Source of the DNA: Actinomadura craniellae
GTDB lineage: Bacteria > Actinomycetota > Actinomycetes > Streptosporangiales > Streptosporangiaceae
Assembly (NCBI RefSeq): GCF_003289645.1
Contig: NZ_QLYX01000001.1
Coordinates: forward strand, 310,001-374,000
Reading direction: 5' to 3'
Length of the DNA: 64,000 bases
Below the pieces are notes generated by a model. It was not told the origin of the DNA, searched no databases, and was given only the letters and a program-made list of their open reading frames with translations. Within the stretch, counting starts at the first letter, position 1. Each line of letters opens with the position of its first letter. Shown here piece after piece: positions 5,529-57,382 of this stretch. Made by a program: the position numbers and the translations under genes.

Positions 5529-5539
5529 ACCAGCTGACT

Positions 5540-6103: not shown

Positions 6104-6163
6104 CGGGCGGCTGAGTCCCTAGTGTCAGGGCGGGAGTGAACCCGGGGTTTTGGTAGAAAAGTG

Positions 6164-6202: not shown

Positions 6203-6396
6203 ACGCTGTCGGTTGCAGGTCGTTAACCTCGGGCCACCATTCAGCAGGAACCGCTTCCTGGGCGCAGGGCCGTCCGGGCCACCCACCCCACCGTCCTGCG
6301 AGTCGCGGGACCAGATCGCCCGAGAACAGTTCCTTTCCGGTCGTGCCGGGTCGAGGCCGCACGCCGCGTCCTGCCCCACCCAACGTTTGGAGCGTC

Positions 6397-7980
6397 ATGT
6401 CCACGATCAGTCGTCGCTCGCTGCTCACCGGCGCCACGGCCGCTGCCGGGCTGTCGGTCGTGGGAGCGCAGAGCGCCCGGGCCTCGTCGCGCAGGCGGGT
6501 TCCGGTGACGCGCGAGGAGCAGCGCCTCGTGATCATCGGTTCGGGTTTCGGGGGCGGCGTGGCGGCCCTGCGGTTCGCGCAGGCCGGAGTGCCGTCCCTG
6601 GTCCTGGAACGCGGCCTGTGGTGGCGTACCGGCCCGAACGCCGCGACCTTCCCGCGCGCCTCCGGCATCGACAAGCGCGCGTTCTGGATGGGCATGTCCT
6701 TTGAGATCTTCGGGATCCGGACACCGCAGCTGGACCCCTACCTCGGGCTCCTGGAGGCGGTGGAGGGCGAGAACATGAACATCGTCTGTGCCGCGGGCGT
6801 CGGTGGCGGCTCGCTGGTCTACCAGGGCATGACCCTCCAGCCCTCGCGGGAGATCTTCAACGCCACCATGCCCGAGCAGATCGACTACTCCGTGATGGAC
6901 AGCGTCTACTACCCGCGGGTCGCGCGCATGCTGAAGATCCAGACCGCCCCCGACGAGCTGATCAACAGCCAGACCTACCTGCCGTCGCGCATCTTCGGCC
7001 GCAACGTCGAGCGCGCGGGCTACTCGCTGTCGAAGATCCCGATGCCGATCGACTGGAACTTCGCGCTGCGCGAGCTCAAGGGCGAGATGAAGCCGTCCTA
7101 CACCAACGGTGACTGCGCGCTGGGCGTGAACAACGGCGGCAAGCACTCGGTGGACGTCACCTACATCGCCGCCGCGCAGGCCACCGGCCTGGTGACCGTC
7201 GCGACCCAGCACAACGTCACCGACGTGGAGATGGCCAAGGACGGCCGCTGGGTGGTGCATGTCGACCGCCTCAGCACCGAGGGCGAGGTGCTGGAAAAGA
7301 AGATCATCACCACGAAGTCCCTTGTCATGTCCGCCGGCCAGGTCAACACCACCAAGCTGCTGATGCGCGCGGCCGCCAAGCGGAAGATCCCGGACATGCC
7401 CGACGGTCTGGGCACCAACTGGGGCTCGAACGGCGACCGCATCTACGTCTGGACCAACCTCGCCGACGACTTCGGCGTCCCGCAGGGCGGCCCGGTCGTC
7501 TACGGCAGCAAGGACTGGGGTTCCCCCGCCACCGCCAACACGGTCATCCAGGCGTCCCTCCCGCCGCTGCCGGTCAACCTGCGCTCCACCATGATGGTCG
7601 GCTTCGGCGTCAGCCAGGGCCGTGGCCGCTTCACCTACAACCCCTTCAGGGACGACGTCGTCCTGCGCTGGCCCAAGGACGGCGACAAGGCGGTGCACGC
7701 GAAGATCCACGAGCGTGCCACGAAGATCGCCGGACCGGCCTCCCTGCTCATCGACACCAACGCGGTCGTCCCCTCCACCTGGCACCCGCTGGGCGGCGCC
7801 TCCATGGGCGTCGTCTGCGACCTCGCCGGCCGCGTGCAGGGCCACCGCGGCCTCTACGTCCTCGACGGCGCCCTGATGCCCGGCACCACCGCGGCCTGCA
7901 ACCCCTCCATGACCATCGCCGCCCTGGCCGAGCGCGCCGCCGACGAGCTCGTCGCCAGCGACGTGGGCACGATCATCTGA
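6397..7980 (+). CDS. choD: Cholesterol oxidase (Tat-exported GMC flavoprotein)
   Basis: This secreted flavoenzyme oxidises cholesterol to cholest-4-en-3-one with release of H2O2. The twin-arginine leader (ISRRSLLTGATAAAGL, ending ARA) matches exported actinobacterial enzymes. The FAD dinucleotide site IIGSGFGGGVAALRFA follows. Then come NIVCAAGVGGGSLVYQG, the family signature near the flavin, and the active-site segments STWHPLGGASMG (His) and ACNPSMTIAALAER (Asn). The length of 527 is normal for class I enzymes. ATG 6397 is preceded by GGAG at 6 bases. A hairpin at 8004-8026 ends the unit. The symbol is conventional and not proven for this strain. Confidence 0.93.
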   Translation: MSTISRRSLLTGATAAAGLSVVGAQSARASSRRRVPVTREEQRLVIIGSGFGGGVAALRFAQAGVPSLVLERGLWWRTGPNAATFPRASGIDKRAFWMGMSFEIFGIRTPQLDPYLGLLEAVEGENMNIVCAAGVGGGSLVYQGMTLQPSREIFNATMPEQIDYSVMDSVYYPRVARMLKIQTAPDELINSQTYLPSRIFGRNVERAGYSLSKIPMPIDWNFALRELKGEMKPSYTNGDCALGVNNGGKHSVDVTYIAAAQATGLVTVATQHNVTDVEMAKDGRWVVHVDRLSTEGEVLEKKIITTKSLVMSAGQVNTTKLLMRAAAKRKIPDMPDGLGTNWGSNGDRIYVWTNLADDFGVPQGGPVVYGSKDWGSPATANTVIQASLPPLPVNLRSTMMVGFGVSQGRGRFTYNPFRDDVVLRWPKDGDKAVHAKIHERATKIAGPASLLIDTNAVVPSTWHPLGGASMGVVCDLAGRVQGHRGLYVLDGALMPGTTAACNPSMTIAALAERAADELVASDVGTII

Positions 7981-8003
7981 GGTGGTGTTCAGGTGGCTCG
8001 TGG

Positions 8004-8026
8004 GGCCTTCCGCAGGCGGAAGGGCC
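8004..8026 (+). terminator. Hairpin after cholesterol oxidase
   Basis: GGCCTTCCGC, a 2-nt loop, then GCGGAAGGGCC, a tight GC hairpin 23 bp after the stop. It has no T-tract, which is usual for actinobacterial terminators. Confidence 0.5.
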
Positions 8027-8232
8027 GGCTCGGGAGTCCCCACGCCCACCTCACCGCGGAACCACACCGCCGGCGTCCGCGGGCCCGGCGGCGGCCGTTC
8101 ACCGTTCGGCAGCCTTGACGTCACCATCTGGTCATCTTTCATGAAGGGGAATGTCGGCGTTCGGACGCCTTTATCGTCAGTGGTCGCGCGTAGGTTGAGG
8201 GCGTCTGCCGGAAGTGAGCACAAGGAGTTGCG

Positions 8233-9468
8233 GTGACGGCTGACCTCCCGCGCGTCGTCGTCGAGGAACCCTCGCTCAGCATCGCCCGCCCGCCCCGTTT
8301 CTGGGGCCCGCGCTTCGGCTGGCCGTTCGCGGTCACCGCCTGCGTCGCGCTGGTCGGCGCGGTGGCGCTGCTCGTCAACGCGCTCACACCGGTCGAGCAG
8401 GTCGTCACGGTCCGCGGCATCATGGCCTCCAAGCAGGACTTCTTCAACGACAGGGAAGTCCAGCGCTTATTGCTGGAGCACAACCTCCGCGTCGAAGTCA
8501 CCGCCCGCGGCTCGGGCGAAGTCGCCTACGAGGTGCTCACCCAGAAGACCGAGCACTACGACTTCGCCTTCCCCTCCGGGCAGCCGGCGGCCGACCTGAT
8601 CAGGAGCGAGCGCCGGAGGCGGGGCCTGCACACCCAGACGACGCGCCTGTTCACCAGCCCGATCGTGCTCGCCAGCTACCGGGAGTACGCCGAGACCCTG
8701 GTCGGGAACGGCGCCGCGAGCCGGCACTCGGGCGGGCCCGGCGGGGCGCTCTACTACACGCTGGACACGGCGAAGTTCGTCGAGCTGGGCAAGCAGGGCA
8801 GGACGTGGAACGACATCGGGATCGGTGACCACCCGAACCCGGACGGCACGAGCATCACGAACGGCAACCGCGTGCTCGCCCACAACTCCGGGGTGTGCCG
8901 GTCCAACTCCGGCGCCACGTACCTCGCCCTCGTCGCCTTCGTGGAGAACGGTGACGAGCCGGTACAGAGCGAGGCCGAGGTGGACCGGGTCGCCCGGGAC
9001 GTCCAGCCGCTCATCACCGCGCTCGGCATGCCGGAGTCGGGCCTGTGGCAGTTCTACGTCACCCCGGAGGGCAAGAGCCGGGGGCCGATCGTCGTGGTGT
9101 ACGAGCACCAGTTCTTCGCCTACCAGCAGGAGCACCGGCGCCGTACCGGGCGCACGGACACCGAGCGGGTGCTGCTCTACCCCAAGCAGGAGTTCCAGAC
9201 CGATCCGGAGTACATCTCGCTCCGCCCGGGCGCCGGTGAGCGGCTCGGCCGGCTGCTGCTCACCGACCCGGCGCTGCGCCGGCGCATGATGGAGCTCGGC
9301 TTCCGGGTCATCGACGACACCGACGCCACCGGGACCGCACGGCTCTTCCAGCTGCTGGTCAGCCGCGGCGTGCCGAAGCCCGACGGGCGCACCGACTACA
9401 CCCGCGCGGAGCTGCCGGAGCCGAACCTGCTGCAACGGCTGGTCGACACGGTCGGCAGGTGCCCCTGA
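8233..9468 (+). CDS. Membrane-anchored solute-binding-like protein
   Basis: A 411-residue protein with a short cytoplasmic N-terminus, one TM helix (about residues 34-56) and an extracytoplasmic part. That part resembles a type II periplasmic-binding fold (VTVRGIMASKQDFFNDREV, then HYDFAFPSGQPAADLI). No transport permease is nearby. The stop overlaps the start of the next gene (ATGA), so the two are translationally coupled. It is the first of three genes that form a membrane or extracellular cassette. I do not recognise a named family, and the function is unknown. Confidence 0.7.
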   Translation: MTADLPRVVVEEPSLSIARPPRFWGPRFGWPFAVTACVALVGAVALLVNALTPVEQVVTVRGIMASKQDFFNDREVQRLLLEHNLRVEVTARGSGEVAYEVLTQKTEHYDFAFPSGQPAADLIRSERRRRGLHTQTTRLFTSPIVLASYREYAETLVGNGAASRHSGGPGGALYYTLDTAKFVELGKQGRTWNDIGIGDHPNPDGTSITNGNRVLAHNSGVCRSNSGATYLALVAFVENGDEPVQSEAEVDRVARDVQPLITALGMPESGLWQFYVTPEGKSRGPIVVVYEHQFFAYQQEHRRRTGRTDTERVLLYPKQEFQTDPEYISLRPGAGERLGRLLLTDPALRRRMMELGFRVIDDTDATGTARLFQLLVSRGVPKPDGRTDYTRAELPEPNLLQRLVDTVGRCP

Positions 9469-44514: not shown

Positions 44515-45330
44515 TCAGGAGGCGGTGGCCGCCTCCCGCTGGTCCGCGCCGTCGTCGAGCTGGCGCACCTGCCGGTAGACGTGGCCGCGCAGCCGGGCGA
44601 AGTCGGGCAGTTCCTTCGTGGTGAGCTGGTTGCGGGGGCGCGGCAGGTCGATGTCGATGACCTCCCGCACCCGGGTCGGGCGCGGGGTGAGGGCGATCAC
44701 GCGGTCGGCCAGGTAGACGGCCTCGTCGATGTCGTGGGTCACGAACACCACGGTCACCCCGTACTCGTGCCGGAGCTTGAGGGTCAGGTCCTCCAGGTCG
44801 GCGCGGGTCTGCGCGTCCAGCGCGGCGAACGGCTCGTCCATGAGCAGGACCTGCGGTTCGTAGGCCAGCGCGCGGGCGATGGCCACCCGCTGCTGCATGC
44901 CGCCCGAGAGCTGCCACGGGTAGCGCCGGCCGGCGTCGGCGAGGTTGACGGCTTCCAGCGAGTCCTTGATCAGCTGCTGCTGTTTGGCGCGGCCCAGCCG
45001 CTTGCGGCGCAGCGGGAAGGCGATGTTCTGTTCCACGGACATCCAGGGGAAGAGCGACCGGCTGTAGTCCTGGAAGACGATCGCCATCTCCTCGGGGGTG
45101 CGGTCGAGCCGCCGGCCCTCGATGCTCACCTGCCCGGTGGAGGCGGACATCAGCCCGGCGAGGCAGCGCAGCAGGGTGGTCTTGCCGCACCCCGAGGGGC
45201 CGACCACGCACACGAACTCGCTGCGCGCGACGGTGAAGTTGATTTCGTCGATCGCGTGGACCGCCTGGGGCCCGTCGCCGTAGGTCTTGCCGAGGCCGCG
45301 GACCTCGAGCATCGGCGCTTCGTCGGTCAT
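44515..45330 (-). CDS. ABC transporter ATPase (SsuB/TauB-like)
   Basis: 271 residues, the ATPase of a nitrate/sulfonate/aromatic-type importer. Walker A is GPSGCGKTTLLRCLAG, the signature LSGGMQQRVAIARAL, Walker B LLMDEPFAALD and the switch His in FVTHDIDEAVYL. ATG 45330 overlaps the stop of the permease (TGATG). It is the last gene of a three-gene operon. The binding protein is at 49708. Confidence 0.95.
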   Translation of the reverse strand: MTDEAPMLEVRGLGKTYGDGPQAVHAIDEINFTVARSEFVCVVGPSGCGKTTLLRCLAGLMSASTGQVSIEGRRLDRTPEEMAIVFQDYSRSLFPWMSVEQNIAFPLRRKRLGRAKQQQLIKDSLEAVNLADAGRRYPWQLSGGMQQRVAIARALAYEPQVLLMDEPFAALDAQTRADLEDLTLKLRHEYGVTVVFVTHDIDEAVYLADRVIALTPRPTRVREVIDIDLPRPRNQLTTKELPDFARLRGHVYRQVRQLDDGADQREAATAS

Positions 45331-46100
45331 CAGGATGCTCCTTTTCGTGCTCCGTGGTGCCAGCGAAGCGCGCGACGCTCGATGGTGCCGAAAGCGAGGT
45401 TGAACAGATAGCCGAGGATTCCGAGCAGCACCATTCCCGACCACATCTCGGGAATCGCGAAAGTGCGCTGGGCCTGGAGGATGAAGTAACCGATCCCGCG
45501 GGTGCTCGCGACCATCTCGCTGATCACCATCAGGATCAGCGACAGCGACAGCGAGATCCGCATCCCGGCGAAGATCTGCGGCGCGGCGGCGGGCAGCACG
45601 ACGTGCAGCATCCGGTCGCGCCGGCTGACGCGGTAGGCCCGCGCGCTATCGAGCAGCCCGGGGTCGACCCCGCGGACACCGTCGATGGTGTGCATCAGGA
45701 CGGGGAACACGCCGACCATCAAGATGATGAACACCTTCATGCCCGTGCCGACGCCCAGCACGACGATGCCGAACGGGATCAGTGCTGGCGGGGGGATCGC
45801 CCGGACGAACTCGATGATCGGTGCCAGCGCGGTGCGCAGGGTGCGCACCAGGCCGATGAGGATGCCGAGCGGCACGCCGATGACGATCGACAGTGCGAAC
45901 CCGGCGAGCATGTTGGTCAGGCTCGGCACGACGTCCGAGCCGACCCGGTCGAACACCCACGTGTCCCGGAAGACCGAGAGGATCTTCGTCAGCGGGGGGT
46001 AGAAGATGTTCGTGCTGCCGGCGGACCACAGCGCCCAGCCGAGCAGGACGAGGATCGGCGCCGCGATCTGGAGGGTGAGGAGCACGCTGCGCCGGTTCAC
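45330..46100 (-). CDS. ABC permease (SsuC-like), subunit 1
   Basis: 256 residues with about six TM helices. The cytoplasmic coupling loop is in EFVRAIPPPALIPFGIVVLG and SARAYRVSRRDRMLHVVLPAAAPQI (the EAA-type loop). GTG 46100 overlaps the previous stop (GTGA). Two different permease genes make a heterodimer with the ATPase next door. Confidence 0.93.
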   Translation of the reverse strand: MNRRSVLLTLQIAAPILVLLGWALWSAGSTNIFYPPLTKILSVFRDTWVFDRVGSDVVPSLTNMLAGFALSIVIGVPLGILIGLVRTLRTALAPIIEFVRAIPPPALIPFGIVVLGVGTGMKVFIILMVGVFPVLMHTIDGVRGVDPGLLDSARAYRVSRRDRMLHVVLPAAAPQIFAGMRISLSLSLILMVISEMVASTRGIGYFILQAQRTFAIPEMWSGMVLLGILGYLFNLAFGTIERRALRWHHGARKGAS

Positions 46101-46939
46101 TGGACGCCTCCCTGGGACCGCTGGGACGGGTGCCACCGCAGCAGCCGTTTCTCGAGCGCGACGAAGAGCAGGTTGAGCAGCACGCCCAGCAGCCCGGTCG
46201 CGATGATGAACGCGTACATGAGCTGGTACTGGCCGCCCGCCTGGGCCACGGTGATCGACTGGCCGAGCCCGGGCGCCCCGATCACCAGTTCGGCGGTGAC
46301 GCAGAGGATCAGCGCGGTGGTCGACGCCACCCGCAGCCCGGGGGCGATGTAGGGCACCGCGCCGGGCAGCACCACCGACAGCAGCGTGTCGCGTGGGCGG
46401 GCGCGGAAGGAACGCGCGGTTTCGAGGGCGACGGGTTCGACGTCGCGCATGCCGTAGATGGTGGCGACGAGCACGGGCCAGGTGGCGGCGAAGGTGGCGA
46501 GGAAGACCTTGCTCTGCAGGCCGGTGCCGAGCACGAGGACGACCAGCGGGATCAGCGCGACCGACGGGATCGGCCGCAGGAACTCGATGACCGCGCTGGT
46601 GGCGGCGTACAGGACCGCGTTGGAGCCGACCGCGATGCCGAGCAGCACCGCGATCACCGTGGCGAGGGCGAAGCTGATGGCCCAGCCCTGCAGCGTGTGG
46701 CCGACGGCGGTCCACAGCTCCGCGGCGCCGGCCATTCCGGCGAGTTCCCGCAGGTCGGCCGAGACGCGGGGAAAGGTCTTCTCCGGCAACAGTCCGACGA
46801 TCGTGGAAAACTCCAGGACGGCCAGTACCGTCACGAGCCCCGCCGCGCCGAGAAGCCCGTCGGTGAACTTCGGCGATCGCAGGAGTCGTCGTCTTGTGCC
46901 GGGGATAATTGACGTCGACATAGTCGAAGTCCGGGTCAA
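46097..46939 (-). CDS. ABC permease (SsuC-like), subunit 2
   Basis: About 280 residues, six TM helices. The EAA loop shows ETARSFRARPRDTLLSVVLPG, and IPSVALIPLVVLVLG lies before it. I choose TTG 46939 because AGGAG stands 6 bases upstream; ATG 46921 has no ribosome site nearby. It is the first gene of the importer operon. Its promoter region is shared with the GntR gene and contains one of the recurring 15-bp motifs at 47099. Confidence 0.92.
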   Translation of the reverse strand: MTRTSTMSTSIIPGTRRRLLRSPKFTDGLLGAAGLVTVLAVLEFSTIVGLLPEKTFPRVSADLRELAGMAGAAELWTAVGHTLQGWAISFALATVIAVLLGIAVGSNAVLYAATSAVIEFLRPIPSVALIPLVVLVLGTGLQSKVFLATFAATWPVLVATIYGMRDVEPVALETARSFRARPRDTLLSVVLPGAVPYIAPGLRVASTTALILCVTAELVIGAPGLGQSITVAQAGGQYQLMYAFIIATGLLGVLLNLLFVALEKRLLRWHPSQRSQGGVQ

Positions 46940-47098
46940 CGAAAACTCCTTCCGGGTGCGGCTCTTGTCACATCCCGTAGCGCTGGGTCGGCCGGCACAT
47001 GGCGGACGTACGGGCACGCCGGCACACCGTGGGCCGTTCACATGGCCGCACGGGGTCGTCGCGGGATTGCAATCGAGCCTTAAACCGAATATATTGAG

Positions 47099-47113
47099 CA
47101 TGATGATTATCTG
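47099..47113 (+). promoter_or_regulatory. Recurring catabolic-regulon motif, site 1
   Basis: CATGATGATTATCTG; 13 of 15 bases match the site at 54521. It lies between the ABC permease and the GntR gene. It is a candidate GntR operator. Confidence 0.55.
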
Positions 47114-47188: not shown

Positions 47189-47896
47189 GTGAGCCGTCCG
47201 GAGCGCACCGGCCGTGCCGAGTGGCGGCTGTCGCGAGCCGAAGCCATCGCGCGGGAGATCGAACGCAAGATCCTCGACCTGGCGCTGCCGGACGGCAGCC
47301 GGCTGGGCACCAAGGAGGACCTGCGCCAGGAGTACGGCGTCGCCGTCGGGACCGTCAACGAGGCGGTCCGGCTCCTCGAGACGCGCGGTGTGGTGTCGGC
47401 CAAGCCCGGCCCGGGCGGCGGCCTGTTCACCCTCCGCACCCCCGGCCACGTGCGCATCAACCACCTGGTCCTCAGCCTCCGCGAGAACGTCGTGACCAGC
47501 GCGCACTGCCTGGCGGTCCGCGACGCGCTGGAGGAGCCCATCCTCATGGACGCGGCGACCCACCGCACCGCCGAGGACCTGGCCGAACTGCGCGAGCTGC
47601 TGGACCGCATGGACGAGCAGCGCACCGACGCCGCCGGCTTCCTGCGCGCCAACTGGGCCGTGCACCGGCGGCTGGCCGAGATCTCGCCCAACGTGGTCCT
47701 GCGCATGGTCTACACGACGATGCTCGACATGATCGAGAACGAGATCGAGGAGGTCAGCTCCGACGACGATCTGTTCACCGCGAGCAAGACCTTCCGGGCT
47801 CACGTCGCGCTCGTCGACGCGGTCGAGTCGCAGGACCCCGCGCGCGTGCGCCGCGCCGTGCGCCGGCACCGGCCCCCGTCGTCGGTCGTCGACTGA
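47189..47896 (+). CDS. GntR/FadR-family regulator with FCD domain
   Basis: 235 residues. The N-terminal winged helix (AIAREIERKILDLALPDG, KEDLRQEYGVAVGTVNEAVRLLETRGVV) is of the GntR type. The C-terminal helical FCD ligand domain (AVRDALEEPILMDAAT, ANWAVHRRLAEI) keeps the spaced His and Asp residues that bind a metal and a carboxylate ligand. GTG 47189 follows AGGAGGAGAG. It stands between the transporter and the amidohydrolase, and the shared promoter motif suggests that it controls the whole 44-57 kb set. Confidence 0.9.
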   Translation: MSRPERTGRAEWRLSRAEAIAREIERKILDLALPDGSRLGTKEDLRQEYGVAVGTVNEAVRLLETRGVVSAKPGPGGGLFTLRTPGHVRINHLVLSLRENVVTSAHCLAVRDALEEPILMDAATHRTAEDLAELRELLDRMDEQRTDAAGFLRANWAVHRRLAEISPNVVLRMVYTTMLDMIENEIEEVSSDDDLFTASKTFRAHVALVDAVESQDPARVRRAVRRHRPPSSVVD

Positions 47897-47956: not shown

Positions 47957-49585
47957 TCAGCCCTGCGCGCGATGGCGGAGCTCCCCGTCGACCGCCGTGG
48001 CCAGCACCGGCAGGTCGCGCAGCTCGTCCGGGGGGCACTGCGCGGGGTCGGCGCCGAGCGCCACCCAGTCCGCGCGCATGCCCGGGCGCAGCACCCCGAC
48101 CGCGTGGTCGTTGAACGCGGCGTACGCGGCGTCGGAGGTGTACATCCGCAGCGCCGCCGCCACGTCGAGCCGCTCGTCCGCGCCGAGCGGCCCCCCGCTC
48201 GGCGCGTGGTGGCGGGTCACCGCCTGCCAGATCCCGCGCAGCGGCTGGAACGGCGTGACGGGCGAGTCCGAGCCGCCGGCCAGCCGGACGCCCGCGCGCT
48301 GCCAGGTGGCCAGCGGCGTGGCGGCGGCCGCGGCGTCCCGGCCGAGCTGGGCGATGAGGCGGCCGGCGAACTGTTCCTGCATCGTCGGCTGCGTGGCCAC
48401 GACCACGCCCAGCCGGCGGGCGTCGGCCATGTTGCGCTCCGAGGGCGTCAGGTACGCGTGGATGGCCTGGCACCGCAGCGGCCGGACCGGGGCCACGCGA
48501 TCGGCGTGGTCGAGCACGTCGAACAGCAGGTCGAGCGCCCCGCCCCCGACGGCGTGCACCCCGAGCGACCAGCCGTGCCGGACGAGCCCGGCCGCGAGCG
48601 TGCGCATCGAGTCGGGGTCGAGCAGCAGCTGCCCGTGGTCGCCGCACCGGCCGGGCCAGGGTTCGCGCAGGTAGGCCGTGCCCAGCGAGCCGCCGCCGTC
48701 CAGGAACACCTTCACCGGTCCGAGCCGCAGCCGGTCGTCGCCGAAGCCGGACCGCACGCCGAGCCCGGACAGGCGCGCGATCTCGTCGGTGACGGGCGCG
48801 CCCGCCACGAGCAGCGGCATCGCGGTCACCCGTAGCGGCAGTTCGCCGTCGGCGTGCAGCCCCTGGTAGGTGGCGAGTTCCTCGGCGCGCAGCCCCGGCT
48901 CGATCACCGACGTGAGCCCGGCGGCCAGGGCCGCCTCCGCCGCGACGGTGATCGCGGTCCGCCGGTCCCGGTCGCCCGGCGGGGGCATGTGGCGGCGGAC
49001 GAGTTCGATCGCCGGGGGCTCGACCAGCACGCCGGTGAGCCGCCCGCCGGCGTCCCGGCCCAGGCGTCCGCCCGGGGGGTCGGGCGTGCCGTCGGTGAGC
49101 CCCGCCAGCTCCAGCGCGACCGAGTTGGCCACGCCCTCGTGACCGCAGCGCAGGATCAGCACCGGGCGGTCGGGGCACGCGCGGTCCAGCTCGTCGCGGT
49201 CCGGCAGGCGGCGCTCGGCGATGTCCTCGGTCTCCCACCCGTCGGAGGAGACCACCCACGGCGCCTCGGGGTGGGCGTCCGCCCAGGCGCGCGTCGCCGC
49301 GATGACGTCCTCGATGCTGCGCGCGCCGGCCAGGTCGAGCAGCACGTGCGCGAGCCCGGTCCACAGCAGGTGCATGTGCGTGTCGATCAGCCCCGGCAGG
49401 ACGGTCGCGCCGCCCAGGTCGAGGACCGGTGCGTGCTCGCCGAGCGCGGCCCGCGCCTGGTCGAGCGAGCCCGCCGAGACGACGCGCCCGCCGCGGATCG
49501 CCAGCGCTTCGGCGCGGGGCCGCGCCGCGTCCATGGTGATGACGCTCGCGGCCCGGACGATGTGGTCACCCTTGTGATTCGTCAT
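47957..49585 (-). CDS. Amidohydrolase (YtcJ-like, Amidohydro_3)
   Basis: 542 residues. The metal-binding motif DTHMHLLWTG is at the start of the barrel. VLILRCGHEGVANSVAL, LGVHAVGGGALDLLFDVL and LAGGSDSPVTPFQPLRGIW carry further metal ligands (His and Asp). This family hydrolyses amides or imides at a metal centre. Next to an aromatic pathway it could release the aromatic acid from an N-acyl or amide precursor; that is inference. Its start codon overlaps one of the recurring motifs at 49583. Confidence 0.88.
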   Translation of the reverse strand: MTNHKGDHIVRAASVITMDAARPRAEALAIRGGRVVSAGSLDQARAALGEHAPVLDLGGATVLPGLIDTHMHLLWTGLAHVLLDLAGARSIEDVIAATRAWADAHPEAPWVVSSDGWETEDIAERRLPDRDELDRACPDRPVLILRCGHEGVANSVALELAGLTDGTPDPPGGRLGRDAGGRLTGVLVEPPAIELVRRHMPPPGDRDRRTAITVAAEAALAAGLTSVIEPGLRAEELATYQGLHADGELPLRVTAMPLLVAGAPVTDEIARLSGLGVRSGFGDDRLRLGPVKVFLDGGGSLGTAYLREPWPGRCGDHGQLLLDPDSMRTLAAGLVRHGWSLGVHAVGGGALDLLFDVLDHADRVAPVRPLRCQAIHAYLTPSERNMADARRLGVVVATQPTMQEQFAGRLIAQLGRDAAAAATPLATWQRAGVRLAGGSDSPVTPFQPLRGIWQAVTRHHAPSGGPLGADERLDVAAALRMYTSDAAYAAFNDHAVGVLRPGMRADWVALGADPAQCPPDELRDLPVLATAVDGELRHRAQG

Positions 49586-49661
49586 AACGATTGTAGGTTA
49601 TCAGGGGAAGAAGTGTTTGCGAACCGTTGACCTTCTGATCCTATTGATGATAATCGTTCTG
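49583..49661. promoter_or_regulatory. Recurring catabolic-regulon motif, sites 2 and 3
   Basis: CATAACGATTGTAGG at 49583-49597, and ATGATAATCGTTCTG at 49647-49661, whose complement is CAGAACGATTATCAT. Both lie in the gap between the divergent amidohydrolase and the solute-binding gene. Confidence 0.5.
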
Positions 49662-49707
49662 CTCGTAATGGCGGCATATGCCGCGTTCCACTCAGGGGAG
49701 TGAAGCC

Positions 49708-50694
49708 ATGATGAGAACGATCCGACGGCGCCGGCTCCGGGTGGTCCTCGCGGCGCTCGCGGTCGGCCTGGCCGCCGGCTGCGGCTCGGGGGGCACCTCG
49801 GCCGGTCAGACCGACGCCGGGGGAGTGACCACGGTGAAGGTCGGCCTGATCCCGATCACCGACGTCGCCCCGCTGTACCTCGGCATCCAGAAGGGGTTCT
49901 TCACCGAGCAGAAGCTCAAGATCGAACCGCAGCTGGCCGCGGGCGGCGCGGCGATCGTCCCCGCCGTCGTCAGCAACAGCAACCAGTTCGGCTTCTCCAA
50001 CAACGTGTCACTGATCGTCGCCAAGAGCAAGGGCGTGCCGCTGCAGGTCATCACGCCGGGCGTCGGCATCTCCCCGGGCCACAACGAGGCGTGCCAGGTG
50101 CTGGTGCCCGGGAAGAGCCCCATCCGCGGGATCAAGGACCTGCCCGGCAAGACCATCGCCGTCAACACGCTCAACAACATCGGCGACGTCACGATCCGCG
50201 CCGCGCTCGAGAAGGGCGGCGTCGACCCCGGCTCCGTGAAGTTCACCGAGATCGGCTTCCCCGACATGGTCACGGCGGTCGAGGCGGGACGCGTCGACGC
50301 GGCCTGGGAGTGCGAGCCGTTCGTCACCGCGCTACTGGACCGCGGCGCCCGCTCCATCCTCAACAACTACGCCGAGACCCACCCGAACCTGGCGGTGGCC
50401 TCGTACTTCACCTCCACGGCCTACGCCAAGAGCAACCCCGACGTGGTGCGCCGCTTCGACACGGCCATGCGCAAGTCGCTGGAGTACGCCAACACCCACC
50501 CGGACGAGATCCGCAAGATCCTCCCGGAGTACGCCAAGATCCCCGCGGCCCAGGCGGCGAAGATCAAGATGATCGCCTGGCCGGGCACGTTCGAGCGCTC
50601 CTCGATCGAGGAACTGGTGCGGCTGACGCAGAAGTACAAGCTCATCCAGCAGCCGGTCAGCCTGGACGAGCTCATCCAGGAACCGAAGTCCTGA
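49708..50694 (+). CDS. ABC solute-binding lipoprotein (SsuA/NMT1-like)
   Basis: 328 residues. A lipoprotein signal (LAALAVGLAAGC) is followed by a type II binding fold. VKVGLIPITDVAPLYLGIQKGFF is the typical NMT1/SsuA start, with GGAAIVPAVVSN and DAAWECEPFVTAL later. It probably delivers an aromatic or small organic acid to the permeases at 45330-46939. GGGGAGTG precedes ATG 49708, and a second ATG follows directly. A terminator lies at 50716-50771. Confidence 0.93.
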   Translation: MMRTIRRRRLRVVLAALAVGLAAGCGSGGTSAGQTDAGGVTTVKVGLIPITDVAPLYLGIQKGFFTEQKLKIEPQLAAGGAAIVPAVVSNSNQFGFSNNVSLIVAKSKGVPLQVITPGVGISPGHNEACQVLVPGKSPIRGIKDLPGKTIAVNTLNNIGDVTIRAALEKGGVDPGSVKFTEIGFPDMVTAVEAGRVDAAWECEPFVTALLDRGARSILNNYAETHPNLAVASYFTSTAYAKSNPDVVRRFDTAMRKSLEYANTHPDEIRKILPEYAKIPAAQAAKIKMIAWPGTFERSSIEELVRLTQKYKLIQQPVSLDELIQEPKS

Positions 50695-51334: not shown

Positions 51335-52096
51335 TCAGCGGGCGACGCCCAGCGCGGACACGCCGCCCAGGCCGGCGACCTGCACTTCGACCCGGGCCGG
51401 CGGGAACGGCGCCGCGGCGGTGGCGCCGCCGGCGAGGACGACGTGGCCGGCCAGCAGCGGCATGCCCTGGCGCCGGGCGATCCGCAGGAGCTCGGGCAGC
51501 GCCCGGTCCGGATGGCCGAGGATGGCGTCGGTGGAGCCCGTCTCGACGTCGGTGCCGTCCACGGTGAGCCGGACGGCCCGGCCGCCCAGGTCGGCGCCGA
51601 GCGGCTGCCAGGACCCGATGACGAACCCGGCGGACGAGGCGTTGTCGGCGATCACGTCGGGCAGGCTGAACCGGAAGTCGCGGTAACGCGAGTCGATGAT
51701 CTCCAGCGCGGGCGCGACCGCGTCCACGGGCAGCTCGTCGTCGTCCGGGGTGACGTCACGGGCGATCCGGTAGGCGACCTCCGGCTCGACCCGGGGGTGG
51801 ATGAACCGGGCCAGCGACACCTGGCCGCCGTCGGGGACGCGCATGGCGTCGGTGAGCCGCCCGACGATCACCTCGTCCACGCCCATCTGCGCCATCTTCG
51901 CCTTGCTGGTGAAGCCGAGCTTGAGCCCGACCAGCCGCTCGCCCCGCCCCAGGCGGCGGGCGATCACCGCGTCCTGGATCGCGTACGCGTCGGCGGGGGT
52001 GAGCCCGCCGGGGAGCTGCGCGACCGCGGACACGGTGTGCTGCGCGGTGTCCAGGCGTTCCGCCGCCTCGGTGCGTGCGCTGGTGTCGGTGCTCAT
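51335..52096 (-). CDS. 2-oxopent-4-enoate hydratase / 4-oxalocrotonate decarboxylase family
   Basis: 253 residues of the FAH-related hydratase/decarboxylase family. LVGLKLGFTSKAKMAQMGVDE, then PRVEPEVAYRIA (metal Glu region), LEIIDSRYRDFRF (metal Glu/Asp) and ADNASSAGFVIG are diagnostic. The family has two sister activities that cannot be told apart by eye. Oxalocrotonate decarboxylase is slightly favoured because no other such enzyme is present. Its ATG overlaps the PobA-like stop. It is the last gene of a four-gene operon. Confidence 0.85.
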   Translation of the reverse strand: MSTDTSARTEAAERLDTAQHTVSAVAQLPGGLTPADAYAIQDAVIARRLGRGERLVGLKLGFTSKAKMAQMGVDEVIVGRLTDAMRVPDGGQVSLARFIHPRVEPEVAYRIARDVTPDDDELPVDAVAPALEIIDSRYRDFRFSLPDVIADNASSAGFVIGSWQPLGADLGGRAVRLTVDGTDVETGSTDAILGHPDRALPELLRIARRQGMPLLAGHVVLAGGATAAAPFPPARVEVQVAGLGGVSALGVAR

Positions 52097-53325
52097 GAAC
52101 CGGTCCTCTCCGTCATCTCGGCTCGGGGGGCGCGCCGGTGGATGCGTCCGGCCGCCGGCAACCCCACGTAGTTCTCGCAGAAGCTCTTCATCGCGGCTTC
52201 GGAGGTGCAGACGTGCTTCAGCTCGGCGTGCTGGAGCCGCCACTCCATCGGGTTGGCCGGGCTGTGGTGCAGCAGCGACGTCATGGAGCGGGAGAACTGC
52301 TGGGCCCGCCAGACCCCGCGCAGCGCGTCGTCGGAGTAGCCGTCCAGCAGGGCGCGGTCGCCGGACTCGAACCAGGTGCACAGCGCGTCGGCGAGCAGCC
52401 GCACGTCCGCGGCGGCGAGGTTGAGCCCCTTCGCGGCGGTGGGCGGGACGATGTGCGCGGCGTCCCCTGCGAGGAAGAGCCTCCCGTACTGCATCGGCTC
52501 CACCACGAAGCTCCGCATGGCGGTGATGCTCTTCGTGGAGATGGTGCCTTCGGCGAGCGTCCAGCCGTCGTCGGTCCCCAGCCGCAGCCGGAGTTCCGCC
52601 CAGATCCGGTCGTCGGACCAGCCGGCCAGGTCCTCGTCCGGCGGGACCTGCAGGTAGAACCGGCTGACCTCGCTCGACCGCATGCTGTGCAGGGCGAACC
52701 CGCGCTCGTGGCACGCGTAGATCAGCTCGAACGTGGAGGGCTGGACGTCCGCGAGCACGCCGAGCCAGGCGAAGGGGTAGTCGTGCTCGTACACCGTCAG
52801 CACGTCGGCCGGGATCGTGCGGCGGGAGACACCGTGGAAGCCGTCGCAGCCCGCGATGAAGTCGCAGGCCAGGACTTGTTCGGAGCCGTCGGCCGCCCGG
52901 TAGCGCACCTTCGGTGCGTCGGTGTCGACGCCGTCGAGCCGCACGTCGTCGACGCCGAACTCCAGGGGGAGGCCCGAGGCGAGGCGGGCGGCGATCGCGT
53001 CCCGGACGATCTCCTGCTGGCTGTACATGACCGCGGTGCAACCGCCGGTCAGCTCGGCCATCGGGATCCGGTACCGCTGCCGGTCGAAGCGCAGCTCGAG
53101 TCCGTGGTGGACGGCCGCCTCCCGGCGCATCCGCTCGTCCAGCCCCAGCTCCTCCAGGAGCCGCATGGTGCGGTGTTCCAGCATGCCCGCGCGGATACGA
53201 CCCTCCACGTAGGACTGGCTCCGGTGTTCCAGGATCACCGCGTCGACTCCGGCGAGCTCCAGCATCCGGCCGAGGAGCAGGCCGGCCGGCCCGGCTCCGA
53301 TGATGGCGACCTGTGTTCGTTCCAT
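52093..53325 (-). CDS. pobA: 4-hydroxybenzoate 3-monooxygenase (PobA-like)
   Basis: An FAD aromatic hydroxylase. The FAD site is VAIIGAGPAGLLLGRML, the DG motif CDFIAGCDGFHGVSR and GRLFLAGDAAHIVPP the second FAD loop. The PobA substrate pocket is kept: Tyr in FELIYACH, Ser and Arg in LHSMRSS, Arg-Phe-Tyr in VSRFYLQV and Tyr in ENYVGLP. Known PobA makes protocatechuate from 4-hydroxybenzoate and can also hydroxylate 4-aminobenzoate. No protocatechuate dioxygenase is present here; a 3-hydroxyanthranilate-type enzyme is next door. ATG 53325 has GGAG 6 bases upstream. Confidence 0.9.
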   Translation of the reverse strand: MERTQVAIIGAGPAGLLLGRMLELAGVDAVILEHRSQSYVEGRIRAGMLEHRTMRLLEELGLDERMRREAAVHHGLELRFDRQRYRIPMAELTGGCTAVMYSQQEIVRDAIAARLASGLPLEFGVDDVRLDGVDTDAPKVRYRAADGSEQVLACDFIAGCDGFHGVSRRTIPADVLTVYEHDYPFAWLGVLADVQPSTFELIYACHERGFALHSMRSSEVSRFYLQVPPDEDLAGWSDDRIWAELRLRLGTDDGWTLAEGTISTKSITAMRSFVVEPMQYGRLFLAGDAAHIVPPTAAKGLNLAAADVRLLADALCTWFESGDRALLDGYSDDALRGVWRAQQFSRSMTSLLHHSPANPMEWRLQHAELKHVCTSEAAMKSFCENYVGLPAAGRIHRRAPRAEMTERTGS

Positions 53326-53373
53326 GTTGAGCTCCACGTAGGGCCGGTCACCGGCTGTAATTGTGAGGGGGTT

Positions 53374-53892
53374 TCAGTAGGTCCGCTGCACTTCGCCGCA
53401 GTTACTGCAGGTACGGGCCTCCAGGTCGTCGAAGAAGCGCTGGTACGCCTCGCCGACCGGGTCGACGGAGTAGTCGGCGATGTGGCACGACTCCTCGTGC
53501 AGGAACTCCCCGCAGTTCTGGCAGTACCACTGGAAGCGGTCGAGCTCGCCCGGGCGGCGGAGCCGCTCGAGGACGATGATGAAGGAGTCCGGGTCGAACC
53601 GGGGGGAGTGCGGGAGCCGGGAAGGAGTGAAGATCGCCGAACCCTCCGGGACCACGTCGATCACCTCGGTGCCGTCCGGCTGGCGGCTGTGCAGCCGCAG
53701 CTCGCCCCGGATCACGTACATCACCTCATCGCTGGGATTGAGGTGGAACTCGCTGCGGTACTCGCGGCCCCGCGCCACGAAGCCGAGGGACTCGTTGTGC
53801 TGCCACAGCACCTCGACGCGCTTGCCGCTCTTGCCGAGGCGTTCGGCGATCGCGTCGAGGTCGACGACCGGCATGCGGTACGGCTCGGTCAT
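53374..53892 (-). CDS. 3-hydroxyanthranilate 3,4-dioxygenase-like enzyme
   Basis: 172 residues of the HAO cupin family, ring-cleaving non-haem iron enzymes. Iron ligands appear in EFHLNPSDEVMYVIRGE (His and Glu) and RLPHSPRF (His). Two C-terminal CxxC pairs (YCQNCGEFLHEE and TCSNCGEVQ) make the rubredoxin-like site of bacterial HAO. Typical product from 3-hydroxyanthranilate is 2-amino-3-carboxymuconate semialdehyde. The PobA neighbour suggests the substrate may instead be a 4-amino-3-hydroxybenzoate. ATG 53892 follows GGAG. Confidence 0.85.
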   Translation of the reverse strand: MTEPYRMPVVDLDAIAERLGKSGKRVEVLWQHNESLGFVARGREYRSEFHLNPSDEVMYVIRGELRLHSRQPDGTEVIDVVPEGSAIFTPSRLPHSPRFDPDSFIIVLERLRRPGELDRFQWYCQNCGEFLHEESCHIADYSVDPVGEAYQRFFDDLEARTCSNCGEVQRTY

Positions 53893-53928
53893 GGTCACTC
53901 CTTCCCGGAGCCCTGGTCTCCTGGTCCG

Positions 53929-54345
53929 TTACTTCGGTTCAACGACGGCGGCGACGCATTCCACCTCGACCAGCACGCCGGCCCGGTGCGGGGGCGCGTT
54001 GACGGTCGTGCGCGCGGGGAAGCTCTCACAGTCGGCGAAGAACTCCCGGTACGCCTTGTTGAACTCGGGGAACTGGGCGGCGTCGCGCAGGTAGCAGTTG
54101 CACTTGAGGATCGAGTCCTTGGTGCCGCCGGCCGCCTCGACCACCGCGACCAGGTTGGTGAGCGTCTGCCGGACCTGCTCGGCGAGGTCGTCGGAGACGA
54201 TCGTGCGGGTGGCCGGGTCCAGCGGGCCCGTTCCCGAGCAGAAGATGAGGTCCCCGTGGACGATCGCCTGCGACAGGGGAGGAGTGGTCCCCGCGGAGAA
54301 GCCGACCTGGGGCGCGTTGGTTGAGCTGATCGAGATCTTCGACAT
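53929..54345 (-). CDS. RidA-family deaminase (2-aminomuconate deaminase-like)
   Basis: 138 residues of the RidA/YjgF family. PLSQAIVHGDLIFCSGTGPLD and LTNLVAVVEAAGGTKDSILK are typical, and the reactive-enamine Arg is in the SFPARTTVNAP segment. In 2-nitrobenzoate and 4-amino-3-hydroxybenzoate pathways a RidA-type protein hydrolyses 2-aminomuconate to 4-oxalocrotonate. Position in an aminomuconate gene set supports that activity. AGGAG lies 5 bases before ATG 54345. It is the first gene of the minus-strand operon. Confidence 0.82.
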   Translation of the reverse strand: MSKISISSTNAPQVGFSAGTTPPLSQAIVHGDLIFCSGTGPLDPATRTIVSDDLAEQVRQTLTNLVAVVEAAGGTKDSILKCNCYLRDAAQFPEFNKAYREFFADCESFPARTTVNAPPHRAGVLVEVECVAAVVEPK

Positions 54346-54431
54346 GGCACTCCTCGTTCGATTCGGCACGTGGTCTGCCGGGCAGCCCGGGGTTCGGAGC
54401 CGCGGCGACTACTCGCTGCGACTCTAACCAC

Positions 54432-54535
54432 CATGTTGATTAGAGTCAATGTATCCCGCGGTGGGCCAGGTGAGGAGGTTGTTGGCCGACCACCCGATTG
54501 TCACCCAGATGCCTATCCATCATAATGGTTATCTG
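54432..54535. promoter_or_regulatory. Recurring catabolic-regulon motif, sites 4 and 5
   Basis: CATGTTGATTAGAGT (54432-54446) and CATAATGGTTATCTG (54521-54535) in the divergent promoter between RidA and the ACMSD-like gene. Both resemble the site at 47099. Confidence 0.5.
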
Positions 54536-54558
54536 AAACAAGGTTCGGAGGGATGGTC

Positions 54559-55647
54559 ATGACATCGGCGAACGAGCCCGCCACCGAGCCCGCCACGACA
54601 GGCCCCGGTCCAGGATCGGACTGGCCCGTGACGGTGGACGTCCACGCGCACGCGCTGCCGCTGCCGCTGCTCCGGTACCTCGCCGACCGCGGCTACGCGG
54701 ACCTGTCCGGCATGGACTCCGGAACGCTGCTGCTGGACCCGAGGGTGTCCGGGGTCGCCCGGGGAGCCCGCATCCCGCTCGCCGCCGACCAGTACGACGT
54801 CCGGCGCCGGCTGACCTCCATGGACGCCGCCGGCATCGCCGCCCAGCTGGTCGCGGCACCGCCGTTCGTGTTCGCCTCGTCCGCCGACGACGACGAACTG
54901 GTCCTGGAGATCACCCGCCGTTCCAACGATGCGCTCGCCGAGTACGTCTCGGCCGACCGGCGGCTTGCGGCGCTGGGAACGGTCCCGGTGGGCCTGCCCG
55001 GCGCAGCCCGGGAGGCGGCCCGCTGCCTGGACGAACTCGGCATGGCGGGCCTGACGACCGGCACCTTCGGCGGGGGCCGCGAACTCGACGACCCGGTCAA
55101 CGAGGACCTGTGGAGCCTGCTGACGGAACGCCGGGCGTTCTGCCTGGTCCACCCGAGCCGCGCGTCCTCCCCGGCCCGGCTGCGCGAATACCACCTGGTG
55201 CAACTGCTGGGCTACCCGGCGGAGACGGCGCTCGCCGCGGCCCGGCTGATCTTCGGCGGCGTCCTGGACCGGCACGACCCGGTGCTGTGCCTCGTGCACG
55301 GCGGCGGATGCCTGCCCGGGCTGGTGCCCCGGCTGGACCTCGGCTGGCGGCGCAAGCGGGAGTCGCAGACCGTTTCGGCGTCACCCCGCGACTACCTGCG
55401 CCGCCTCCACTACGACACCGCGGTCTTCGACGGCACCGCGCTCCGCCGCCTGATCGAAGACGTCGGGCCCGGCAACGTCCTGCTCGGCACCGACCTGCCC
55501 TTCGACCTCGCCGACGTCGACGCGGTCTCCACCGTCCGGGAGCAGGGCCTGCCGCCCGCGGTCGAACACGCGATCCTCGCCGGGAACGCGCTGCGGCTGA
55601 TCCCTTCCCTGACCACCGCGCCCGGCACCCCCGGCGCGGCCGGATAG
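54559..55647 (+). CDS. ACMSD-like amidohydrolase decarboxylase
   Basis: 362 residues of the amidohydrolase_2/ACMSD family. VDVHAHALPLPLL carries the first metal His pair; VHGGGCLPGLVPRLD and LLGTDLPFDLADVD supply further ligands. By family knowledge such enzymes decarboxylate 2-amino-3-carboxymuconate 6-semialdehyde or the 5-carboxy isomer. ATG 54559 is chosen because GGAGGG stands 6 bases upstream; ATG 54553 touches the ribosome site. It is the first gene of a plus-strand operon with a tautomerase and a semialdehyde dehydrogenase. Confidence 0.85.
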   Translation: MTSANEPATEPATTGPGPGSDWPVTVDVHAHALPLPLLRYLADRGYADLSGMDSGTLLLDPRVSGVARGARIPLAADQYDVRRRLTSMDAAGIAAQLVAAPPFVFASSADDDELVLEITRRSNDALAEYVSADRRLAALGTVPVGLPGAAREAARCLDELGMAGLTTGTFGGGRELDDPVNEDLWSLLTERRAFCLVHPSRASSPARLREYHLVQLLGYPAETALAAARLIFGGVLDRHDPVLCLVHGGGCLPGLVPRLDLGWRRKRESQTVSASPRDYLRRLHYDTAVFDGTALRRLIEDVGPGNVLLGTDLPFDLADVDAVSTVREQGLPPAVEHAILAGNALRLIPSLTTAPGTPGAAG

Positions 55648-55730
55648 CCGACCAGAGCCGGACACGGCCGGACGAGGACGGCGGGAACCGCCCGCCCGTC
55701 ACCCCCCTTTTCTCGCCAGGAGGATTCGAC

Positions 55731-55937
55731 ATGCCCCTTGTGCAGGTCAGCTTGGCCGCGGGACGGCCCCCTGACCAGATCCGAGAACTGATCAGCGAAG
55801 TGCACGACGCGGTCGTGCGCGCTACCGGAACCGACCCGGCACGGGTACGGGTGCTCGTCCACGAGCTGCCGCCGACGCACTGGGCCGCGGGCGGGGTCAC
55901 GCTCGCCGAGCGCGACACCGCCACAACACAGGAATGA
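55731..55937 (+). CDS. 4-oxalocrotonate tautomerase-like enzyme
   Basis: 68 residues. MPLVQVSLAAGRPPDQ gives the N-terminal catalytic Pro once Met is removed. The RVLVHELPPTHWAAGG end is typical of the family. It would convert 2-hydroxymuconate to 2-oxohex-3-enedioate before decarboxylation. AGGAGG lies just upstream of ATG 55731. The next gene starts 11 bp after the stop. Confidence 0.85.
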   Translation: MPLVQVSLAAGRPPDQIRELISEVHDAVVRATGTDPARVRVLVHELPPTHWAAGGVTLAERDTATTQE

Positions 55938-55948
55938 GGGGTAACGGC

Positions 55949-57382
55949 ATGGAGTTCTTCGGGCACGTCATCGACGGCGAGGAAGTCGAGTCGCAGGACG
56001 GCGCGCGGTTCGACAGCGTCGATCCATGGACCCGGCAACGGTGGTCCGAGGTGGCGCTCGCCTCCCGGAAGGACGTGGAGGCGGCCGTGGCGTCCGCGCG
56101 CCGCGCGTTCGACGACGGCCCGTGGCCGCGGATGGGCTACGCCGAGCGCGGCCGGCTGCTGCACCGCCTCGCCGACCTGGTCGAGGCGAACAAGCAGGAG
56201 CTCGGCCTGGCGGACACCCGGGACATGGGCAAGCCGGTCACCCAGAGCGTCGGCAACGACGTCGACCGCGCCGTCCAGAACCTCAGGTTCTTCGCCGACC
56301 ACGCGCGCCTGACGGCGGCGGACACGCTGCCGATGGACAGCGGTCACCACGCCTACACCAGGTTCGGCCCGGCCGGTGTCGTCGCCGCCATCGCCCCCTG
56401 GAACTTCCCGCTGATGCTGGAGACCTGGAAGATCGCGCCGGCCCTGGCCTGGGGCAACACCGTCGTCCTCAAGCCCGCCGAGGACACCCCGGCGTCCGCG
56501 ACGCTGCTGGCGCGGCTCGCAGTCGAGGCCGGCCTCCCGCCCGGCGTCCTCAACGTCGTGCACGGATACGGCCCGGAGTCCGCCGGGCAGGCGCTGACCG
56601 AGAGCACCATGATCGACCGGATCACGTTCACCGGCGCGTCGAGCACCGGCCGGACCATCGCCCGGGTCGCGGGCGGGAACCTGGTCCCGGCGAGCCTGGA
56701 ACTCGGCGGCAAGGGCGCCAACCTGGTCTTCGCCGACGCCGACCTGGACACGGCGGTGGACTGGTCCATCCGGGCCATCTTCACCAACGCCGGCCAGGTG
56801 TGCCTCGCCGGCAGCCGGCTCTACGTGCAGCGCGAGGTCTACGACGAGTTCCTCGCCCGGTTCGTCGCCGCCGCCGAGGCGATGGTGATCGGCGACCCCA
56901 CCGAACCGGCCACCCAGGTGGGCCCGCTCGCCTCGCAGGAGCACTACAAGAAGGTGCGCGGGTACGTGGAGACCATCGAGGCGCAGGGCGGCCGCATCCG
57001 CACCGGAGGGCTCGGTGACGGCTGGATCGTCCGCCCCACCGTGATCACGGACATGCCGCAGGACGCCCCGCACTGGTGCGAGGAGATCTTCGGCCCGCTC
57101 GTCGTCGTGGCCCCCTTCGACACCGAGGCCGAGGGGATCGCGCTGGCCAACGACACGCCGTACGGCCTCAACGCCATGGTGTTCACCGAGAACCTGAGCC
57201 GGGCGCACCGGGTGTCCGCGGCCCTCCGCGCCGGGACGGTCTGGGTGAACTGCTTCTTCATCCGCGACCTGCGCGCACCGTTCGGCGGGGTCGGCGAGTC
57301 GGGGGTCGGCCGGGAGGGCGGCGCGTTCAGCCGCGAGTTCTTCACCGAGCCGAAGGCCGTCGTCATGCAGATCGACCGCTGA
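55949..57382 (+). CDS. 2-(hydroxy/amino)muconate semialdehyde dehydrogenase
   Basis: 477 residues, an NAD(P)-dependent aldehyde dehydrogenase. APWNFPLMLETWKIAPALAWG, the NAD loop FTGASSTGRTIARVAGG, general base Glu in LELGGKGANLVFA and catalytic Cys in NAGQVCLAGSRLY are all present. The FGGVGESGVGREGGAFSREF end places it close to 5-carboxymethyl- and 2-aminomuconate semialdehyde dehydrogenases. It fits the step after ACMSD-like decarboxylation. ATG 55949 is preceded by GAGGGG; ATG 55934 overlaps the tautomerase stop and is an alternative. Confidence 0.9.
   Translation: MEFFGHVIDGEEVESQDGARFDSVDPWTRQRWSEVALASRKDVEAAVASARRAFDDGPWPRMGYAERGRLLHRLADLVEANKQELGLADTRDMGKPVTQSVGNDVDRAVQNLRFFADHARLTAADTLPMDSGHHAYTRFGPAGVVAAIAPWNFPLMLETWKIAPALAWGNTVVLKPAEDTPASATLLARLAVEAGLPPGVLNVVHGYGPESAGQALTESTMIDRITFTGASSTGRTIARVAGGNLVPASLELGGKGANLVFADADLDTAVDWSIRAIFTNAGQVCLAGSRLYVQREVYDEFLARFVAAAEAMVIGDPTEPATQVGPLASQEHYKKVRGYVETIEAQGGRIRTGGLGDGWIVRPTVITDMPQDAPHWCEEIFGPLVVVAPFDTEAEGIALANDTPYGLNAMVFTENLSRAHRVSAALRAGTVWVNCFFIRDLRAPFGGVGESGVGREGGAFSREFFTEPKAVVMQIDR

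Follow-up and report, generated by a model that had tools for sequence, protein, structure and literature searches.

A putative gene cluster for 4-aminobenzoate catabolism in Actinomadura craniellae, with the ring amine proposed to be kept through cleavage

Background

The first steps described for Bordetella sp. 10d are cleavage of 4-amino-3-hydroxybenzoate and deamination of the resulting 2-amino-5-carboxymuconic 6-semialdehyde by a YjgF/RidA protein. The deaminated product then loses a carboxyl group non-enzymatically and is oxidized, tautomerized and decarboxylated (PMC4539516, PMC6449761). Here we describe a block of genes in Actinomadura craniellae that resembles this ahd system. Its catabolic core lies at positions 51335-57382 of a 64,000-nucleotide stretch of contig NZ_QLYX01000001.1, which is referred to as the window. 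Judged from its sequence, the block is probably a self-contained island for the catabolism of 4-aminobenzoate or one of its conjugates, whose ring amine would be kept through cleavage.

When compared by described enzyme types, the cluster and ahd both bring together a monocupin dioxygenase, a RidA-type deaminase, a semialdehyde dehydrogenase, and a 4-oxalocrotonate tautomerase and decarboxylase. They also share, as proposed here, an amino group that stays in place through ring cleavage. Unlike ahd, the cluster has an actinomycete host, and a PobA paralog is proposed to supply the ring-cleavage substrate from 4-aminobenzoate. It also carries an ACMSD-like gene, which suggests enzymatic decarboxylation, whereas the Bordetella step is described as non-enzymatic.

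The 3-hydroxyanthranilate (nba/kynurenine) pathway draws on the 3-hydroxyanthranilate dioxygenase (3HAO) and ACMSD families, a RidA-type deaminase, a semialdehyde dehydrogenase and the MhpD family, all of which are represented in the cluster. However, the enzymes encoded here are 28-40% identical to those of true clusters, their substrate-side residues differ, and a tautomerase and PobA are added. The initial annotation had likened the locus to both ahd and nba. The first likeness stands, but nba is the poorer model because the true-3HAO clusters examined have no tautomerase and the identities are so low. The pobA-pcaHG pathway for 4-hydroxybenzoate has the PobA family and the same pocket residues in common with the cluster, whose PobA nevertheless occupies its own branch and is 60% identical to the pca-linked copy in the same genome. 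The Paenibacillus pra pathway shares a PobA-type entry and the intermediate 2-hydroxy-5-carboxymuconate 6-semialdehyde; it differs from the route proposed here in that the latter employs a RidA deaminase and an HAO-like dioxygenase.

The open-access literature yielded no earlier description of such a gene cluster for 4-aminobenzoate ring cleavage; subscription papers lay outside the search, so its absence is not proven. The principle is known from Bordetella sp. 10d. To the extent that open-access papers show, the PobA entry, the enzymatic decarboxylation and the occurrence in an actinomycete are new.

Results and discussion

Gene content and conservation

The seven genes reported in the initial annotation are all present, intact and correctly placed, as judged from open reading frames and family-model matches, and the gene set is real. 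Its members are as follows.

51335-52096, minus strand: MhpD/DmpH-family enzyme, probably a 4-oxalocrotonate (2-oxo-3-hexenedioate) decarboxylase; best match TIGR03218, below cut-off
52093-53337, minus strand: PobA paralog, proposed 4-aminobenzoate 3-hydroxylase; 4-hydroxybenzoate 3-monooxygenase family, pocket kept, separate branch
53374-53898, minus strand: HAO-like monocupin ring-cleaving dioxygenase, proposed 4-amino-3-hydroxybenzoate 2,3-dioxygenase; 3-HAO fold, iron ligands, own clade
53929-54369, minus strand: RidA-family deaminase, proposed 2-amino-5-carboxymuconate 6-semialdehyde deaminase; family match, Arg120 kept
54553-55647, plus strand: ACMSD-like Zn decarboxylase, proposed 2-hydroxy-5-carboxymuconate 6-semialdehyde decarboxylase; Amidohydro_2, metal ligands
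55731-55937, plus strand: 4-oxalocrotonate tautomerase; family match, Pro1 and Arg11/Arg39 positions kept
55934-57382, plus strand: 2-hydroxymuconate 6-semialdehyde dehydrogenase-like aldehyde dehydrogenase; TIGR03216, below curated cut-off

These genes form two divergent transcription units. The ridA-hao-pobA-mhpD unit runs on the minus strand from 54369 down to 51335, with a 4-base overlap between pobA and mhpD, and the acmsd-4ot-aldh unit occupies 54553-57382 on the plus strand. A cluster search covered 299 genomes of the same family and the GTDB contig collection. The same block, with 75-95% protein identity, recurs in six Actinomadura genomes (A. geliboluensis, A. bangladeshensis, A. madurae and three further species), and its arrangement is therefore not due to chance. 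The associated transporter, hydrolase and regulator genes occur in matching order wherever the Actinomadura contig is long enough. A plasmid search with the dioxygenase returned only matches below 60%, mostly annotated as 3HAO, and a phage search returned none.

Ring-cleavage and decarboxylase enzymes

The dioxygenase scores 62.6 bits against the Pfam 3-HAO family (PF06052), which is above the cut-off, and falls below both 3HAO equivalog cut-offs (113 bits versus 220 for PRK13264; 103 bits versus 146 for TIGR03037). The best PDB matches to its AlphaFold model (pLDDT 94) are all 3HAO, at 25-27% identity. With 64 relatives it forms a clade of 65 that stands apart from eight true 3HAO with a support of 100, in a tree made by a quick method and containing some long branches. 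All 65 members preserve the 2-His-1-Glu iron ligands (His52/Glu58/His97) and the CxxC metal motifs, and equivalents of 3HAO residues Arg47 and Glu110 are also invariant. The clade departs from 3HAO elsewhere. Every member has HSPRF instead of HSPQR, a change that removes one residue at the Arg99 position, and carries Tyr143 in place of Ile142. Near the metal site, ARGR replaces VGGP before Arg47 and Met60 replaces Phe59 throughout the clade. Arg99 and Ile142 are taken, partly from general knowledge and partly from PDB titles, to act on the substrate side of the 3HAO pocket. These differences suggest that the substrate carries its carboxylate at a position other than that of 3-hydroxyanthranilate.

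The decarboxylase is an Amidohydro_2 protein whose closest solved structures are ACMSD (6e-35). Equivalents of the ACMSD Zn ligands His9, His11, His177 and Asp294 and of the catalytic residues His228 and Arg239 (roles from PMC11650718) are kept in 19 of 19 relatives. The same 19 proteins have Ser66 for Arg51 and Gln217 for Trp194, whereas Arg and Trp are found in five of five true ACMSD. Arg51 is a gatekeeper in true ACMSD, where the R51A mutation abolishes ACMS decarboxylation (PMC11650718). Paired substrate-side changes in the dioxygenase and decarboxylase are as expected if the intermediate that both enzymes handle has a 5-carboxyl instead of a 3-carboxyl group.

A second PobA

The cluster PobA scores 570 bits against PRK08243 (cut-off 351) and 499.5 bits against TIGR02360, short of the 538.7-bit cut-off of this equivalog for true 4-hydroxybenzoate 3-monooxygenase. 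The intact 4-substituted-benzoate pocket claimed for it earlier is borne out by alignment, which finds Tyr201, Ser212, Arg214, Tyr222, Pro293, Thr294, Tyr385, Asn300 and the proton-relay residue His72 (P. fluorescens numbering) all kept. Its substrate should therefore be a benzoate with a 4-substituent. Action on anthranilate was considered and rejected, since the pocket requires a 4-substituent near Tyr201. Lineage-specific changes include Gly295Ala, which adjoins Thr294, and Val47Met.

Another PobA gene in the same genome encodes a canonical enzyme. It directly adjoins an intradiol dioxygenase pair (protocatechuate 3,4-dioxygenase, pcaHG), one protein of which reads as PcaH, and more β-ketoadipate genes are located nearby. 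Both kinds of PobA, one copy of each, are present in all five cluster-bearing genomes searched (that of the window and four others). A tree of 44 PobA proteins built by a quick method places all seven cluster copies together (support 100), and the stem leading to them measures 0.63 changes per site. According to a title cited in PMC6315137 (Schreuder 1994), PobA has been crystallized in complex with 4-aminobenzoate. A diverged second PobA beside amine-handling enzymes is as expected for a PobA turned to 4-aminobenzoate, which it would then hydroxylate efficiently.

Remaining enzymes and the lower pathway

Arg120, within the PAR motif of the RidA protein, is kept in 46 of 48 homologues, and the structure 6izh is a distant match. 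The tautomerase retains Pro1 and the Arg11 and Arg39 positions, which have established roles in 4-oxalocrotonate tautomerases. The aldehyde dehydrogenase matches TIGR03216 at 510 bits (5.9e-153; cut-off 693). The MhpD-family protein scores 186 bits (6e-55; cut-off 351) with the model for the 4-oxalocrotonate decarboxylase DmpH (TIGR03218) and 136 bits (1.6e-39, also below cut-off) with the hydratase model TIGR03220. A hydratase assignment for this gene was rejected because the decarboxylase model scores higher and hydratases sit with aldolase genes elsewhere. Hydratase, aldolase and acetaldehyde dehydrogenase are each encoded twice at other sites in the genome, in two mhpDEF-type sets.

Proposed pathway

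All substrates and the order of steps given here are predictions from gene content, pocket residues, clade membership, the second PobA and the lower-pathway genes. An ABC transporter would import 4-aminobenzoate or a conjugate, from which an Amidohydro_3 enzyme may free the aromatic amine; this is the weakest step. The PobA paralog would convert 4-aminobenzoate to 4-amino-3-hydroxybenzoate, and the HAO-like dioxygenase would cleave the latter between C2 and C3 to yield 2-amino-5-carboxymuconate 6-semialdehyde. RidA is predicted to deaminate this product to its 2-hydroxy form. The ACMSD-like enzyme would then remove the 5-carboxyl group to give 2-hydroxymuconate 6-semialdehyde, which the aldehyde dehydrogenase would oxidize to 2-hydroxymuconate. 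Conversion to 4-oxalocrotonate by the tautomerase and decarboxylation by the MhpD-family enzyme would complete the work of the cluster, and the two mhpDEF-type sets would supply the hydratase, aldolase and acetaldehyde dehydrogenase.

The substrate proposed in the initial annotation, 4-aminobenzoate by way of 4-amino-3-hydroxybenzoate with the amine on at cleavage, remains the best-supported reading. Its order of decarboxylation, oxidation and deamination probably needs revision, as this would idle the tautomerase. Deamination before oxidation is preferred because the Bordetella sp. 10d order uses the tautomerase and every other cluster gene, whereas the earlier order does not. Thus, RidA probably acts before oxidation, with the ACMSD-like enzyme taking over decarboxylation.

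Alternative interpretations

The same enzymes and substrate could operate in the nba/amn order, with decarboxylation to 2-aminomuconate semialdehyde, oxidation to 2-aminomuconate and RidA deamination to 4-oxalocrotonate. AmnD, which deaminates 2-aminomuconate, belongs to the RidA family (PMC6449761), the cluster RidA distantly matches 6izh, and an ACMSD-like gene is present even though the Bordetella decarboxylation is described as non-enzymatic. We nonetheless regard this order as unlikely. It leaves a conserved tautomerase with no required task, the true-3HAO clusters that use it have no such gene, and the nearest deaminase named for the proposed substrate works at an earlier step. A different entry is provided by the 4-hydroxybenzoate pathway, in which PobA would make protocatechuate for 2,3-cleavage by the HAO-like enzyme, as in pra, and RidA would be incidental. 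The PobA pocket is fully compatible with 4-hydroxybenzoate, and the intermediates after deamination are common to protocatechuate 2,3-cleavage, so that the remaining genes fit equally. However, a pobA-pcaHG cluster for 4-hydroxybenzoate already exists in this genome, the PobA described here has diverged strongly, and RidA genes are kept beside the dioxygenase across phyla, all of which make this pathway improbable. The concern that the PobA-like enzyme only forms protocatechuate handled elsewhere was examined by sequence: 4-hydroxybenzoate is already served by the canonical PobA-pcaHG.

Very little weight is given to 3-hydroxyanthranilate, from kynurenine or anthranilate, as the ring-cleavage substrate with PobA as a bystander. 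The best solved relatives by sequence and fold are indeed 3HAO and ACMSD, and the dioxygenase keeps the Arg47 and Glu110 equivalents. Against this, the substrate-side residues of both dioxygenase and decarboxylase differ from those of true 3HAO and ACMSD in every member, and this bears directly on the earlier question of whether the dioxygenase prefers 3-hydroxyanthranilate. Moreover, PobA is predicted to be co-transcribed and is conserved in six of six clusters, and two genomes (G265 and G209) carry a separate true 3HAO/ACMSD/RidA/dehydrogenase cluster in addition to this one. In the genome that contains the window, just one HAO-family gene is found at E <1e-12. The second PobA, the diverged dioxygenase and decarboxylase, and these coexisting true clusters make both 3-hydroxyanthranilate and protocatechuate fit worse than 4-amino-3-hydroxybenzoate. 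Least probable of all is growth on a substituted aminobenzoate such as 4-aminosalicylate. P. fluorescens PobA was crystallized with 2-hydroxy-4-aminobenzoate, to go by a title cited in PMC6315137, but no gene of the block is specific to 4-aminosalicylate, and this mostly anthropogenic compound is hard to match with a block spread over several species.

Several observations weigh against amine-retaining catabolism of 4-aminobenzoate. Hydroxylation of aryl amines is a side activity of P. fluorescens PobA. The dioxygenase pocket points to a substrate other than 3-hydroxyanthranilate without naming it, and the dehydrogenase, decarboxylase and tautomerase all score under equivalog cut-offs. In 17 of 64 loci of the dioxygenase clade, mostly from Deltaproteobacteria together with some short contigs, no RidA gene occurs in the stretch read. 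PobA is confined to the Actinomadura clusters. Relatives that share the core genes, Microbispora and Amycolatopsis among them, have none nearby, and their entry compound may therefore differ.

The dioxygenase clade in other hosts

Members of the dioxygenase clade are found in actinomycetes, Alcaligenaceae, Alphaproteobacteria, Deltaproteobacteria and one Chloroflexi bin, and could easily be mistaken for 3-hydroxyanthranilate dioxygenases. A RidA gene accompanies 47 of the 64 named loci and lies within 1.5 kb in 36. At 14 of the 64 loci a tautomerase gene is next to those for ring cleavage, compared with none of four true-3HAO clusters. An Amidohydro_3 homologue is located no more than 10 kb from the dioxygenase at 18 of the 64. 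Proteobacterial neighbours include amidases (Pigmentiphaga) and Amidohydro_3 enzymes (Amorphus, Arenibacterium, Carideicomes). In Comamonas (L110, 6218-9073 and 12503-14428; L106), the dioxygenase-RidA pair is next to a glutamine-synthetase-like gene and a Rieske oxygenase, and γ-glutamyltranspeptidase is also among the neighbours surveyed in other hosts. The amidase, Amidohydro_3, glutamine-synthetase-like and γ-glutamyltranspeptidase genes fit a role in release or protection of an aromatic amine.

A second cluster type occurs in Microbispora, Acrocarpospora, Herbidospora and Amycolatopsis (L043-L046, L048, L066-L068, L071, L072, L076, L077). In common with the Actinomadura block it has a dioxygenase of this clade, a RidA, a tautomerase, a dehydrogenase and an ACMSD-like gene. 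No PobA is nearby, and the genes found there instead encode an acyl-CoA ligase, an Amidohydro_3 enzyme, an SDR, an MFS transporter and a CoA-transferase. Deltaproteobacterial and Binatia members (L098, L099, L101, L103, L105, L108, L111) have no RidA nearby and carry a conserved 415-residue MFS-type transporter. At one further locus (L047 in genome G208, 2884-9444), a clade dioxygenase is accompanied by all of the lower-pathway enzymes, namely decarboxylase/hydratase, aldolase and acetaldehyde dehydrogenase, and by an ABC transporter of the branched-chain type, with no hydroxylase in the stretch read.

Flanking genes and regulation

The catabolic genes are bordered on one side by transport, hydrolase and regulator genes. 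The opposite flank presumably consists of cobalamin genes (cobN and cobG-like), as recognized generally from open reading frames. The bordering features and the central promoter region are listed below.

45330-47101, minus strand: two permeases of an ABC transporter, with an approximate upstream boundary; other Actinomadura clusters have homologues at 76-90%
47189-47896, plus strand: GntR/FCD transcription regulator that may control the whole block; family match, shared upstream element
47957-49585, minus strand: Amidohydro_3 (YtcJ-like) hydrolase that may free an aromatic amine from its conjugate; family match
49678-50694, plus strand: NMT1/SsuA-type ABC substrate-binding protein, probable growth-substrate uptake; linked in six Actinomadura genomes
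54370-54552, no strand: divergent promoter region with invariant blocks and the element ATGGTTATC at 54525-54533; comparison of Actinomadura clusters

When up to one mismatch is allowed, the motif ATGATWATC is found six times in the 64 kb, compared to a shuffle mean of 1.5. Four of these occurrences (at 47103-47111, 49647-49657 and 54525-54533) are in three intergenic regions of the block, which precede the permease/GntR, hydrolase/binding-protein and ridA/acmsd gene pairs, respectively. The sequence stretches around them show little or no variation among the Actinomadura clusters compared. This AT-rich element is a candidate operator of the GntR/FCD regulator, and the whole block may be one regulon.

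Implications

The cluster enzymes are offshoots of enzymes normally annotated as acting on other compounds. If the proposed pathway is correct, they would constitute a complete genetic route for growth on 4-aminobenzoate, a folate building block, with the amine kept until after ring cleavage, and a known enzyme, PobA, would have been re-purposed for an aromatic amine. It is possible, and we suggest it tentatively, that the duplicated PobA is a dedicated 4-aminobenzoate 3-hydroxylase in Actinomadura that feeds a widespread, unrecognized clade of enzymes cleaving amino-hydroxybenzoates freed from amide or γ-glutamyl conjugates. If the pathway holds, at least 65 dioxygenases and a matching group of decarboxylases should not be annotated as 3HAO and ACMSD.

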